Of a stretch of 45,322 nt of DNA, positions 6,677 to 12,302 are shown piece by piece. Position numbers and translations under genes: made by a program. The notes below the pieces were generated by a model. It worked only from the letters and a program-made list of their open reading frames with translations, did no database searches and had not been told where the DNA came from. The DNA comes from a virus, in the IMG/VR virus record IMGVR_UViG_3300032092_002150, positions 1-45,322 of that record. The stretch is one strand, 5' to 3'. Within the stretch, counting starts at the first letter, position 1. Each line of letters opens with the position of its first letter.

Positions 6677-6705
6677 AAAAGCCACCTTCGGGTGGCTTTT
6701 CTTTT
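6677..6705 (+). terminator. Bidirectional terminator between gp32 and the minus-strand block
   Basis: A six-pair GC-rich stem (GCCACC, GGTGGC) is closed by a TTCG tetraloop and flanked by A and T runs (AAAA at 6677-6680, TTTTCTTTT at 6697-6705). It follows the gp32 stop by 21 bases and reaches the stop codon of the opposing 824-residue gene. The symmetric flanks let it work on both strands. Confidence 0.92.
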
Positions 6706-9178
6706 AGAACGCATACTTAGAGTCATTATATTTCGATAACGACGAGTCATTGTTTCGTATAGGTGGTTTTATTGCAGTAGTTGTTCTCTGTTGAACATTC
6801 GTTTGACTTACTGTGTTTGTTGAATTCACCTGCGTTCCACCTTGACCTTCTTTCGCTGTTGCTACATCTTTAGAAAAAGAATCAACAGCCTTTGATGATG
6901 TGGGCGCATTTGCTGGTTTTACAGCACCCTCATCAAATCCCTTTTTACCTGATGCTAATGCGTCAGCTTCCATCTTTTTATTTGCTGTGTCGAATTCAGG
7001 TTTTTGTTTTGCGTATTGCGCTTCAACTTCTGCTGGGTATGGATATTTGTTATCTTTATCCATCATTTTTTTCATACTGATCGCACGCATCTGTTTATCG
7101 GACAATGGACTTCCTGCAACAAAATCATCTCCAGCAATCTGTATTTTTTCAGTTTTGGTTGTAACAGAACCACCAGCTGGTTTCGCTGCAGCTGGTTTCG
7201 CTGCATCTGCTTTTGGTGATGATGCTGTTGCGGTAGCAGCTGCTGCTTGCGCTGCCTCTGCCTTTGGTGTTGCGGTAGCAGCTGCTGCTTGCTCTTTACC
7301 TTTACCTTCTGATTCTTTTTTCTTACCTTTGTTTTGGCGATCAGATATCTCTCTCATCTTCGCTTTATATTCTGGCGACTCAATCTTCTTCGCTATGGCG
7401 ATAAACTTTTTCGCAGCATCATCCATTGCTGCAGCATCATTAGCCGATTCAGCTTTACCGAATGCATCCCATTGCTTCATTGCTTCATCTACATCTTCTT
7501 TCTTACCGCTAAGATTATATCCTGATTCGTAGCCAGCAATAGTATGACCACCAATTTTTTCTTGTTGAACCTTTGCACGTGAAAACTTTACTTCTGCTTC
7601 TTTCGGTGCTGTTTGTGTATTAGGTGCATTCGCCAGAGTTTCTGTTTTGGCAGCAGCACCTGACTTGTCAGGATTAGGACCACTAAATGCATTTACAATT
7701 TTACCACCTGTCTCACCCAAGAAACTTCCTGCTTTACCACCAAGAAAAGATCCACCAAGACCACCAACTGCTGCACCAATTAATCCACCAACAGCAGTTC
7801 CAAGTACAGGAACAACTGAGCCAATAGCAGCTCCAACTGCTGCGCCTTTGAGCGCACCAACTGTTCCGCCAACTGCCATTCCCGTACCCTCACCAATCGC
7901 ACCACCTTTTTCTACAGTTGCTTCTTCAGCAGTTATCTCACCCTTCGCTAACTTTTCGTTTGCGCCAGTATAACCTGAATATGCAGTGTAAGCGCCAGCA
8001 CCAACTGATGCTATGGCTGCAGCTGGACCAGCAAATTTACTGGCACCTTGTAGTAGGCTTCCTGCTTTAGATGCTATGCCACCGATCTTACCTACTTTAC
8101 CTGCTTTTTTACCACCTTTACCCAACATATCCATAGCACTATCTGCTACATCACCTATACTACTTCCGCTACCACCTGCTTTAACCGCAGCCAATAGTTC
8201 TGCGTCAGCTTTTGCAATTCTTGTTTTTTCTTCGCGCCACTCTTCCAAATAAATTGGGAACGCAGCTGTGTTTTCTTGAACATTTGAAAACAATTCATTT
8301 TGTGTGTTCATCAAGCGAAGGTTTTCTAATTCAGTTTCTTTAGCGCCACCAAGAACATCACCACCATCTCCCTTAGAAGGGAATGGAATTACATTTGATG
8401 GCATCTCTGATGCAGCTGGACCAGCAACTGACGCAGCCATTCCACCAAGAACACCCTTTACTTCTTGCTTTCTAAATTTGTCTACAGACAATTCTTCAGC
8501 TTGGGCTGTTTCTAATGCTTTCTTTTGTCGTTTACCACCAATTGATTTACCTAATTCTTCTTCGCTTATGCCACTGGCCATTAGCGAGTCCATCTTGTAC
8601 TTTTCAGCTTGTGTTTTTGCCTGCGCTGGCGCAAACTTTTCTTCGTGTTGTTTAATGTAGTATTGTCTTACCTTCTCATCATCCCCACCGAATTGTTTTA
8701 AATTCTTCATCTGAGGATTCATCTTCATCAACGTGTCGGCACGTTTTAATTTATCTTCACGTCTACCAGCAAGATTACCAAAGAAACTATCATCCTTCAT
8801 TCCAAATACGGATTTACCTAAACCACGTACACTTCCCAACTTATACTTTAACGAATCTTGATCGAAGGGGTCTCGTTTTCCATCAGATCCTTTTCGTCCT
8901 AGCAGTCCATCTTTAAATTGATCTTTTACGGTTCTCTGATCAAATGTGCCACCTTGCTTATAATTTACTTCACCTGCTCCACTAGATTTAATGCCACCAC
9001 CACGAACAGCTAATGCTAATTTTTCCAAATTGGTTGCTAGTTTCTCACTAGTCTTAACCAATTTCTCATTCACATCAAGCGACTTCTTTTCCAGTTCTTT
9101 TGACTGTTGATCAACTTGAGATGTGCCTGATGAGTCACGATATTGACTCATTGGAATAATTTTTGCTAGGTTTGCCAT
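6704..9178 (-). CDS. Large glycine-zipper protein, candidate tape measure (gp29 position)
   Basis: An 824-residue protein of low sequence complexity. Regions: an N-terminal coiled coil (about 24-58, KELEKKSLDVNEKLVK); a charged helical part (about 60-220); a long Gly/Ala-rich hydrophobic part (about 365-500) with glycine-zipper patterns such as GAAVGAAIGSVVPVLGTAVG, able to form membrane helices; a Lys/Glu helical part; an Ala/Pro/Lys low-complexity stretch with two related copies (about 630-680); and a Thr/Gln-rich end. Tape-measure proteins combine coiled coils with such hydrophobic segments and stand directly after the tail assembly chaperone genes, as here after gp26 and the gp51-like segment. 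No direct similarity to T4 gp29 is visible to me. It could alternatively be a hub or ejected protein. The ATG follows the preceding stop with no gap. Confidence 0.62.
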   Translation of the reverse strand: MANLAKIIPMSQYRDSSGTSQVDQQSKELEKKSLDVNEKLVKTSEKLATNLEKLALAVRGGGIKSSGAGEVNYKQGGTFDQRTVKDQFKDGLLGRKGSDGKRDPFDQDSLKYKLGSVRGLGKSVFGMKDDSFFGNLAGRREDKLKRADTLMKMNPQMKNLKQFGGDDEKVRQYYIKQHEEKFAPAQAKTQAEKYKMDSLMASGISEEELGKSIGGKRQKKALETAQAEELSVDKFRKQEVKGVLGGMAASVAGPAASEMPSNVIPFPSKGDGGDVLGGAKETELENLRLMNTQNELFSNVQENTAAFPIYLEEWREEKTRIAKADAELLAAVKAGGSGSSIGDVADSAMDMLGKGGKKAGKVGKIGGIASKAGSLLQGASKFAGPAAAIASVGAGAYTAYSGYTGANEKLAKGEITAEEATVEKGGAIGEGTGMAVGGTVGALKGAAVGAAIGSVVPVLGTAVGGLIGAAVGGLGGSFLGGKAGSFLGETGGKIVNAFSGPNPDKSGAAAKTETLANAPNTQTAPKEAEVKFSRAKVQQEKIGGHTIAGYESGYNLSGKKEDVDEAMKQWDAFGKAESANDAAAMDDAAKKFIAIAKKIESPEYKAKMREISDRQNKGKKKESEGKGKEQAAAATATPKAEAAQAAAATATASSPKADAAKPAAAKPAGGSVTTKTEKIQIAGDDFVAGSPLSDKQMRAISMKKMMDKDNKYPYPAEVEAQYAKQKPEFDTANKKMEADALASGKKGFDEGAVKPANAPTSSKAVDSFSKDVATAKEGQGGTQVNSTNTVSQTNVQQRTTTAIKPPIRNNDSSLSKYNDSKYAF

Positions 9179-9319
9179 TTATCTTTTACTCGCTAATCTT
9201 TGTTTTTCTTCTTCTAGGTATTGAAGCAACATCGTAACATATATGTCTCTCTCAAATGGAATCATATTTTCAATCTCAGCCAAGGAATACTTATGGTATT
9301 GCATGAGAGAAAAGTTCAT
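9179..9319 (-). CDS. 51: gp51-like tail/baseplate hub assembly segment, probably made by frameshift
   Basis: A 46-residue frame from the first ATG (MNFSLMQYHKYSLAEIENMI, then PFERDIYVTMLLQYLEEEKQ). The IENMIPFERDIYVTMLLQYLEEE block is the pattern of short proteins placed at the gp51 (hub assembly) position in aquatic T4-likes and of the C-terminal part of tail assembly chaperones. There is no convincing ribosome binding site before the ATG (TTGGGAAACTTTTATAAA). The frame is open for 14 codons further upstream, back into the T8 run at the gp26 stop, so the segment could be made as a gp26 extension by -1 frameshifting (60 extra residues). Its stop TAA abuts the ATG of the 824-residue tape-measure candidate. 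T4 gp51 itself is longer, so the name is by position. Confidence 0.78.
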   Translation of the reverse strand: MNFSLMQYHKYSLAEIENMIPFERDIYVTMLLQYLEEEKQRLASKR

Positions 9320-9357
9320 TTTATAAAAGTTTCCCAAATCCTCATGACTGAGATTAA

Positions 9358-10071
9358 TTAAAAAAAACTTTCAACACCCTCCAAGGTTCTATTGTTTTCT
9401 TTTTCACAAACAGGGCACTTAAATGTCACACTGTGTTTTAGTTTTGGCATCGTATCAAAAAAGATTTCAATTTTCTTGAACTGTTGTTGCGTCAAACTAT
9501 TTAAAAAGTCTGTCATCTCTTGCTTGGTTTGTTCTTTTGCATGAAACACTTCTTCATCATTATACACATAATCAATGCAGTCAGCAACCACATCAAAAAT
9601 TGCTTCGATATTACCATTACGCAAACTCTCAAGAGCAATGAGAGTGGTAATATTTGGATACTTCATCATAATTCCAAGACCATTGTGTAGATCAACCTTT
9701 AAGGTATGATCTTTTACACCATGTACTTCAATTTTACTAATGTCTATTTGTTGTTGAGACTTTGCTTTTTCGTCATCGCAGGTGTCGCAGTAAAATAGAA
9801 GATCGACATACTCACCGACAGATTTAGAGCGTAACTGTGTGAAGATAAATTCTAAGTCAAAGATTGCCAATGCATCAACATCTATTGGTTCTTTAACACA
9901 AGAAGAAACAATTTCCTTCAATGTGTCAACCATAATGTTTATGTCTGCGCTTTGTTGCGCCAGCAATAATGCCTTTTCTTCTTTCACAAGAAAGGGTCTA
10001 ATCTTAATTTCCTTCTGCGTTGAGGGAATTTTAATTGTGTATATCGGTGTCTGTATAATAGGTAAAGCCAT
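9358..10071 (-). CDS. 26: Baseplate hub / tail assembly protein gp26
   Basis: A 237-residue protein of the T4 gp26 family. The N-terminal pattern PIYTIKIPSTQKEIKIRPFLVKEEKALLLA (about 9-38; only fragments quoted elsewhere) is diagnostic: a beta hairpin followed by RPFLVKEEK. FDLEFIFTQLRSKSVGE (71-87) is the second conserved block. Two CxxC pairs (C95/C98 and C219/C222) could form a four-cysteine zinc ribbon. T4 gp26 (208 residues) is needed for hub assembly but its biochemical role is unclear; together with gp51 it sits where other phages encode tail assembly chaperones. Its stop codon is preceded by a slippery T run. The start ATG is five bases after the gp16 stop on the same strand. Confidence 0.88.
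   Translation of the reverse strand: MALPIIQTPIYTIKIPSTQKEIKIRPFLVKEEKALLLAQQSADINIMVDTLKEIVSSCVKEPIDVDALAIFDLEFIFTQLRSKSVGEYVDLLFYCDTCDDEKAKSQQQIDISKIEVHGVKDHTLKVDLHNGLGIMMKYPNITTLIALESLRNGNIEAIFDVVADCIDYVYNDEEVFHAKEQTKQEMTDFLNSLTQQQFKKIEIFFDTMPKLKHSVTFKCPVCEKENNRTLEGVESFF
9360..9367 (-). other. Slippery T8 run, candidate -1 ribosomal frameshift site
   Basis: On the minus strand the gp26 gene ends GAA AGT TTT TTT TAA, so the heptamer T TTT TTT lies in the X XXY YYZ phase immediately before the stop. A -1 slip would continue TTA ATT AAT CTC and stay open for 60 codons through the gp51-like segment, giving a 297-residue fusion beside the 237-residue gp26. Position at the end of the first of two small genes before a tape-measure candidate matches the lambda G/G-T arrangement. 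Confidence 0.65.
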
Positions 10072-10075
10072 GTTC

Positions 10076-10492
10076 TTAATCTCCTTTAGTCATATTCTTA
10101 ATTAACTTATTCAACTCAGTAGTACTTCCAACAAAAATTGCGTTATTGTTGGTTATCTGTTTCGACTTTTCTTTTTCTACAGGATCATCTAGTTTTTGTT
10201 TCTGTTTATGTAGATCCATCAATTGCTGGTTTGCGTCGACCAACTGTTTCATTAAATTCCCAACTACTTCGAATGCTCTTGGGTGTTCAGATTGTTTGGC
10301 AATTTCTAAGGCACTTACCAAGGCTTCGTGCCCTTGTTTAAGTAGCGCTTGAATGTTACCTCTCGTTAAAGTATAATCATCTTCAACTTTTTCATTAGAT
10401 GGTTTTATTATTTCTCCATCTTGTGTTATAATTTCTGTTTTCATTGTACTCTCAATGTCAAAAACTTCATTTAATTTATCATCCATTTTCAT
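10076..10492 (-). CDS. 16: Terminase small subunit gp16
   Basis: A 138-residue protein of the T4 gp16 family, the ring-forming DNA-recognition subunit that works with the gp17 ATPase/nuclease during headful packaging. The conserved central part is present: RGNIQALLKQGHEALVSALE, then QSEHPRAFEVVGNLMKQLVD (helical hairpin), and the C-terminal NAIFVGSTTELNKLIKNM that characterises the family in aquatic T4-likes. It is a little shorter than T4 gp16 (164). It lies between gp54 and gp26 in the minus-strand block rather than next to gp17, which is not in the window. The gap to gp54 is two bases, so it is part of the same operon. Confidence 0.86.
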   Translation of the reverse strand: MKMDDKLNEVFDIESTMKTEIITQDGEIIKPSNEKVEDDYTLTRGNIQALLKQGHEALVSALEIAKQSEHPRAFEVVGNLMKQLVDANQQLMDLHKQKQKLDDPVEKEKSKQITNNNAIFVGSTTELNKLIKNMTKGD

Positions 10493-10494
10493 AA

Positions 10495-11250
10495 TTAAAT
10501 TGTATTCCCTCTCACACCTAAACGAAGTGAACCATCAGGATCAGCAGGATCTAACCCTCTTGCTCTCATCTCTCTAACATATTCTGACTCAGAAGATTGA
10601 CGAGATTGCGATGATGGTGATATGTTTGCTGCAACCTGCGGTATAATAACCTCGCCAGGAGATAGAGCAGGGTCGGATTCTATTGCTGATTGTTTTTGTG
10701 CCACTGCTGCTTTTCCAAAGTTTAGAATTTCATAATATCTATATTGCATCTGCACCTGTAGCCTCATAACATCTTTGGCTTCATATGATAACTGTATTGC
10801 GCTAATTTGTTTTGGGTAACATTCAAATAGTTTAACACCATACGTTCTATTGTTTTCACTATCCAATGTGACTACTGTCATATCAACTGTGTAATCTTTG
10901 TAGTAGGAGAATGTTCTTGTCTTTGTGTTTTGAATGTTCGATGCCCACGAATCAAAAAATCCCTTAATCCACATATCTCTGTCGCAATAAAATGTCAACT
11001 GAAGTGGATCAAAAATTCTTTCGTATGGAATCTCTCTAAATTCACCGAATGTTCTTGATTGTGTTGATGTATATGAGAGACCAGGAAGAGATGCCTGTTC
11101 GCAGTACAATAACATTGTTCTCCAATTACTATCCTCTTTATACTGCGTGTCCTTTAGAACTTTTGGCTTTGCGATAGTAACCTCAAACTTAGAAGGCTTC
11201 GCTAGTCCCGATACCTTTATCGCTGAAATGAATTCGTTTAGCGTGCTCAT
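10495..11250 (-). CDS. 54: Baseplate tail-tube initiator gp54-like
   Basis: A 251-residue protein of the T4 tube-protein fold family (gp54/gp19). Visible features are LNEFISAIKVSGLAKPSKFEV at the start, MLLYCEQASLPGLSYTSTQSR (about 46-66), the RTFGEFREIPYERIFDPLQLTFYCDRD strand region, and LFECYPKQISAIQLSYEAKDV. The separate longer gp48 and the baseplate setting favour gp54, on which the tail tube polymerises, over the main tube protein gp19. The C-terminal 55 residues are Ser/Arg-rich and probably disordered. The start overlaps the end of the upstream gene by four bases (ATGA). Confidence 0.8.
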   Translation of the reverse strand: MSTLNEFISAIKVSGLAKPSKFEVTIAKPKVLKDTQYKEDSNWRTMLLYCEQASLPGLSYTSTQSRTFGEFREIPYERIFDPLQLTFYCDRDMWIKGFFDSWASNIQNTKTRTFSYYKDYTVDMTVVTLDSENNRTYGVKLFECYPKQISAIQLSYEAKDVMRLQVQMQYRYYEILNFGKAAVAQKQSAIESDPALSPGEVIIPQVAANISPSSQSRQSSESEYVREMRARGLDPADPDGSLRLGVRGNTI

Positions 11251-11855: not shown

Positions 11856-12302
11856 TTATCTAGTTTGTGACAGCCCAAGTTCATATTCAGTAATTATCTT
11901 AAAATGCCATCCTCTGTCTTTGGCATAAGAATCGGCAGCTTTCCACTTGGCTTGATTTATGACAAAGGTGGAAGATTCTGTAAGATATCGTTTAGTTTGT
12001 CTCCCAGGATAACTTGGGGGCTGTGTTTGGTTATAAGGTTTTACCTCAACCAAATAGGTTGAGAGTTTCCCTGTTTTATCTCTTGCCTGAATCCTAAAAT
12101 CTATAAAATACCGATGAACCTTGTCATCAATGGGCGATCTATAAGGAACAACTGTTTCCTCTGAAGACCACTTTATAATAGACGTGCTTCGATCACACCA
12201 TGAGGCGAATCTGGTTTCCCAGCTCGATCTCATAATGATATTGGTTGGGTCACCATCATATTTTTCTGGATTCGATGGTTTATATTTTCTCTTGTGAAAC
12301 AT
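11856..12302 (-). CDS. 4: Head completion nuclease gp4
   Basis: A 148-residue protein of the T4 gp4 (gp50/65) family, needed to complete heads before tail joining. It carries a PD-(D/E)XK-like nuclease pattern: MRSSWETRFASW (E29), YFIDFRI (D68), and LVEVKPYNQTQPP with E86 and K88, followed by INQAKWKAADSYAKDRGWHF and FKIITEYEL, the usual C-terminal strand. Length matches T4 gp4 (150). It is the first gene of the minus-strand block. The ATG is at the edge of the divergent intergenic region, whose inverted repeat would supply its promoter. Confidence 0.88.
   Translation of the reverse strand: MFHKRKYKPSNPEKYDGDPTNIIMRSSWETRFASWCDRSTSIIKWSSEETVVPYRSPIDDKVHRYFIDFRIQARDKTGKLSTYLVEVKPYNQTQPPSYPGRQTKRYLTESSTFVINQAKWKAADSYAKDRGWHFKIITEYELGLSQTR

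Follow-up and report, generated by a model that had tools for sequence, protein, structure and literature searches.

Genes and Features of the Junction

The window, meaning the whole stretch of DNA that was analyzed, is one virus record of 45,322 bases, and its source is a marine-type virus of bacteria. On its minus strand, a gp26 homologue ends at a run of T residues, and a gp51-like segment carries on in the -1 frame as far as the tape-measure gene. The features of this region are as follows.

6704..9178, minus strand: tape-measure gene, 824 aa (phrog_794 tail length tape measure, E 1.8e-8)
9179..9361, minus strand: -1 frame segment (TAC-C, gp51-like), 60 codons and a stop (phrog_634, E 2e-25)
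9360-9358, minus strand: 0-frame stop TAA, which ends gp26, directly 3' of the heptamer
9367-9361, minus strand: slippery heptamer T TTT TTT in the X XXY YYZ phase, in phase in 160 of 160 junctions
9382-9377, minus strand: Shine-Dalgarno-like GGAGGG inside gp26, 9 nt 5' of the heptamer, a putative 5' stimulator of slippage with synonymous-site bias
9358..10071, minus strand: gp26 homologue (TAC-N), 237 aa, the product of normal translation (PF12322 T4_baseplate, E 1.5e-58; phrog_150, E 3.9e-64)
10495..11250, minus strand: tail tube protein, gp19-like, upstream (phrog_45)

The 3' end of gp26 reads TTG GAG GGT GTT GAA AGT TTT TTT TAA. The first-pass annotation had described an in-phase T TTT TTT touching the stop codon of gp26, a -1 frame open for 60 codons up to the base before the next gene, and a tape-measure candidate as that gene. 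All of this agrees with the sequence: the heptamer and the stop adjoin, the open codons run from the slip site at 9361 to 9182 and end with the stop at 9181-9179. Immediately 3' of that stop, at 9178, is the ATG of the following gene, which matches phrog_794. Together, gp26 and the -1 segment would make a 297-aa fusion (TAC-NC). There is also a match between the -1 segment and the C-terminal end of the phrog_150 profile (E 8e-7), so members of phrog_150 may in some cases continue into this segment.

Two further genes deserve a mention in their own right. A small-terminase gene (PF11053, phrog_445) lies at 10076-10492 on the minus strand and separates gp26 from the tail tube gene. At 11856-12302, also on the minus strand, the gp4-like head-closure protein (phrog_218) matches the N-terminal domain of TnsA-like endonucleases as well (PF08722, E 7e-21).

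Conservation of the Slippery Heptamer

For comparison, 159 IMG/VR loci were retrieved with the gp26 protein and the -1 segment protein as queries, giving 160 junctions with the window, a few of them counted twice because the same contig was found by both queries. Because protein similarity and not the T run decided which loci were taken, the heptamer counts as a largely independent observation; the -1 segment query selects for the presence of the segment, not for its frame. Relatedness was reduced by taking 109 representatives with less than 85% identity over 300 nt. These are still related to one another, so the z scores and P values given below are descriptive.

An in-phase T TTT TTY stands at the end of gp26 in every one of the 160 junctions, and a conserved phase of the T run in relatives is what the first-pass annotation had named as support. 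Elsewhere in gp26, the same motif occurs in phase at only 4 of 23,811 codon positions of the representatives, and its presence at the end of the gene is far beyond chance. The distance from the heptamer to the 0-frame stop is 0 nt in 96 junctions, 3 nt in 61, and 24 nt in 3, and 71 of the 160 carry the shorter run T TTT TTC. The residue that precedes the two phenylalanines is variable among the representatives (S, D, N, A, G, or T). The third base of its codon is nonetheless T in 109/109 (expected 61, descriptive log10 P -30), and the first phenylalanine codon is TTT in 109/109 (expected 74, descriptive log10 P -19). The synonymous sites within the heptamer are frozen.

The same signal is found in named phages, with an in-phase T TTT TTN in 16 of 20 junctions. 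These include S-PM2, P-SSM2, S-SM2, S-H68, S-WAM2, ACG-2014e, S-CRM01, HTVC008M, Melnitz-3, and phiN3, and also Vibrio Va3, Vibrio D480, and ORM_20; in RHph_I1_9, P10VF, and RHph_I1_18, the last codon of the heptamer is TTG or TTA. The records of S-WAM2 (L170:1511-1688) and ACG-2014e (L180:1511-1691) leave the gp51 segment unannotated, as a gap before the next gene.

The canonical heptamer is absent from the remaining four junctions: Salmonella Vi01 (L172:2238-2402), Klebsiella May (L173), and Enterobacter EspM4VN (L181), which belong to the Ackermannviridae, and Vibrio D493 (L174). All four still keep a homologous -1 frame of 54-60 codons after gp26, and since these Ackermannviridae-type relatives retain the frame without the canonical heptamer, not every member of the wider family has that signal. 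The Vi01 version of the frame is found in 280 phage records. The -1 frame is unannotated in the records of Vi01, May, and EspM4VN.

Possible Stimulators of Slippage

E. coli dnaX has a Shine-Dalgarno-like element about 10 nt upstream of its slip heptamer. In the 109 representatives, a glutamate codon a few codons 5' of the two phenylalanines is GAG in 73 of 90 cases (expected 25.5, descriptive z 11.5), and the preceding leucine codon has G as its third base in 57 of 82 (expected 23.9, descriptive z 8.3). The outcome is a GGAGGG or GAGGG 9 nt 5' of the heptamer, a Shine-Dalgarno-like element of the dnaX kind. Part of this match is imposed by the amino acids Leu-Glu-Gly, and a five-base Shine-Dalgarno match is accordingly seen in 29.5% of synonymous shuffles, compared to 61% of the observed sequences (67/109). 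The codon bias suggests that GGAGGG acts as a 5' stimulator of slippage.

The picture is more varied downstream. No stable RNA structure was found downstream in the window (z 0.14), no 3' stem-loop at a shared register was found in the window's class, and RNAalifold gave no consensus fold for the ungapped class alignments. Across the representatives, the mean z for downstream folding was -1.26, against -0.35 to 0.01 in control stretches. The cyanophage class mostly has T TTT TTC, with the stop one codon further on; in 22 of its 56 sequences, a stem of 7 bp or more is present at one fixed register, compared to 6.5 with shuffled arms and none to four at other registers. This stem starts about 5-8 nt past the heptamer, and in loci L026 and L037, for example, it lies 5-35 nt past it. 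It is fairly likely that the signal is a dnaX-like cassette, with a selected internal Shine-Dalgarno element and either an immediate stop or a stem-loop 5-8 nt downstream, and with a tuning that differs between T4-like lineages.

The -1 Frame and Rival Explanations

Relative to gp26, the gp51 segment is in the -1 frame in all 160 junctions, and no stop interrupts it. A lack of stops in relatives had been named as support in the first-pass annotation. In the window, the first TTG of the frame is at 9337 and the first ATG is at 9319, 16 codons past the slip site. One could consider gp26 and gp51 as separate products, with gp51 initiated independently at an ATG or TTG or through termination-reinitiation past the gp26 stop. 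Databases do annotate gp51 as a separate gene, the stop of gp26 shares bases with an ATG in Vibrio Va3 and D480, Rhizobium P10VF, and S-CRM01 (TAATG or TGATG), and 31 of the 109 representatives have an ATG 5 codons past the slip site. However, the representatives differ in where the first start codon falls, and 38 of them have no start of any kind within the first 12 codons. The earlier remark that the first ATG has no clear ribosome binding site extends to the relatives, with a Shine-Dalgarno match before it absent in 105 of the 109. The internal GGAGGG was considered as a ribosome binding site for gp51 and rejected, as there is no start at a usable distance in the window's -1 frame.

The amino acids encoded 5' of the first ATG also speak against separate initiation. 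In codons 4-16 after the slip site, which precede the first ATG of the window, 68% of single changes in the window's class are synonymous in the -1 frame, compared to 14-26% in the other two frames; in the other class, the values are 49% and 13-14%. The same codons hold no stop in any of the 109 sequences (53 and 56 in the two classes). These comparisons indicate that the -1 frame is under purifying selection at the protein level 5' of any start codon. Independent initiation cannot explain this conservation, and it leaves the frozen synonymous sites of the heptamer unexplained. Separate production of gp51 is therefore very improbable.

Less probable again is transcriptional slippage, in which RNA polymerase would add a base to some mRNAs at the T run and so bring about the -1 shift. 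The 8-T run of the window is near the lengths at which bacterial RNA polymerase is known to slip (runs of 9 A or T, PMC5009743). However, 71 of the 160 junctions have only the 6-T run of T TTT TTC, the phase is exactly that of ribosomal slippage, and the conserved internal Shine-Dalgarno-like element fits ribosomes only. A run of six T residues is too short for efficient polymerase slippage. As for an error in the length of the T run or a decayed pseudogene, homopolymers are error-prone in sequencing and the window is a single virus record, but this reading has next to no probability and is refuted by conservation, because 159 other contigs share the frame and phase, 71 of the 160 junctions with a shorter run, and the heptamer recurs in 16 of 20 named isolates, while purifying selection on the -1 frame contradicts a pseudogene.

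A Probable Tail Assembly Chaperone Pair

The best reading is slippage by the ribosome. As in many tailed phages, -1 slippage at the T run almost certainly gives this virus two forms of a helper protein for tail building from a single stretch of DNA. We infer that most ribosomes would translate gp26 and stop at the TAA, giving the short form, TAC-N. A minority would slip by -1 at T TTT TTT as tRNA-Phe re-pairs in both the P and A sites. The internal GGAGGG, 9 nt 5' of the heptamer, would probably aid them, as would the adjoining stop codon, which may also slow the ribosome. The slipped ribosomes would read 60 further codons to give the gp26-gp51 fusion of 297 residues, TAC-NC. If the two forms act as gpG and gpGT do in lambda, the short one would coat the tape-measure protein and the long one would recruit tail-tube subunits.

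The layout of the locus is that of lambda G and G-T: overlapping open reading frames, the second in the -1 frame without its own start, located between the tail tube and the tape measure. The gene order, tail tube, gp26/gp51, and tape measure, and the match of T4 gp51 to the fusion along its whole length (below) support the earlier suggestion that gp26 and gp51 form a tail-assembly-chaperone pair. As judged from sequence comparison, the locus very probably encodes such a pair, gp26 as TAC-N and the 297-aa fusion as TAC-NC, made via -1 slippage.

The AlphaFold model of gp26 is confident, with a pLDDT of 87.6. Among PDB structures, the tail assembly chaperone of HK97 (2OB9) ranks first against it, but at E 1.6 and probability 0.33 the likeness of the predicted fold to 2OB9 is only suggestive. 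The top named matches of the model in a viral library are gp26 relatives. A search of the gp26 profile against the sequences of solved structures gave nothing relevant, and an NCBIfam search gave no match.

T4 keeps genes 26 and 51 apart, on opposite strands, and its gene 26 ends GAG TTC TTT GAG TTA CTA TAA, without the heptamer. For T4 gp26, the match to TAC-N extends as far as its Phe-Phe (E 1.3e-18). T4 gp51 (249 aa) aligns with the profile of the whole fusion over residues 6-247 (E 1.3e-15), and its residues 14-200 align with T4 gp26 itself (E 3.6e-7). Sullivan et al. (2010, PMC3037559) noted that cyanophage gp51 is without the first approximately 200 residues of T4-type gp51, and this difference in length is explained by the full-length alignment of T4 gp51 with the frameshift fusion. 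T4 gp51 is required for assembly but is absent from the final particle (PMC3004832), as described earlier for that phage.

Likeness to Known Systems

The first-pass annotation knew of no description of this kind for T4-type gp26/gp51, but a 2022 study by Vladimirov and colleagues had dealt with these genes. Frameshifting is reportedly conserved in several T4-like groups, with T4 using separate genes 26 and 51. The study identified which genes encode the tail assembly chaperones in T4-like phages (Vladimirov, Gautam and Davidson, Virology 2022, 566:9-15); the genes (26 and 51) and the idea of a short and a long form are the same as here. A 2025 paper (PMC12846349) cites Vladimirov et al. for -1 frameshift signals of the poly-T kind in the TAC-N genes of this phage group, and the PRFect paper (PMC10885494), also citing them, describes some T4-like phages as using a short gene and a longer fusion gene, with no frameshifting. 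Atkins et al. (2016, PMC5009743) had treated the G-T frameshift as widely conserved and T4 as the exception. The main claim was thus already made in 2022, and the locus is a further case of a known T4-like frameshift. The synonymous-site statistics and the Shine-Dalgarno-like element may be additions to Vladimirov et al. (2022), and the hairpin of the cyanophage subset and the Ackermannviridae without the heptamer are possible additions.

The likeness to other systems is one of signal and layout. Compared to lambda gpG/gpGT, which uses another slippery heptamer, the heptamer here touches the 0-frame stop and a Shine-Dalgarno-like element lies upstream. With E. coli dnaX, the upstream Shine-Dalgarno-like element is shared, as is a downstream stem-loop in the cyanophage subset. 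In the window, a candidate 5' stimulator was found at a suitable spacing, but a 3' stem-loop was not. The heptamer is T TTT TTY here and A AAA AAG in dnaX, the product here is a phage tail chaperone, and frameshifting yields the longer product here but the shorter one in dnaX. Phages of the Vandenendeviridae and Andersonviridae likewise shift by -1, at a GTTTTT motif where TAC-N ends, and the -1 frame is open in each of the genomes (PMC12846349); they are a different phage group and are compared here by signal.

Significance

The gp51-like segment has matches in 615 phage records. Hundreds of genome records therefore contain it, and in those examined, it is annotated as a separate gene or missed. 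The products gp26 and gp51 have long been called hub components or catalysts in T4-type phages, and the finding supports regarding them as the tail assembly chaperones that had been missing. In a large group of marine phages, the long form would come from frameshifting, whereas T4 uses two genes.
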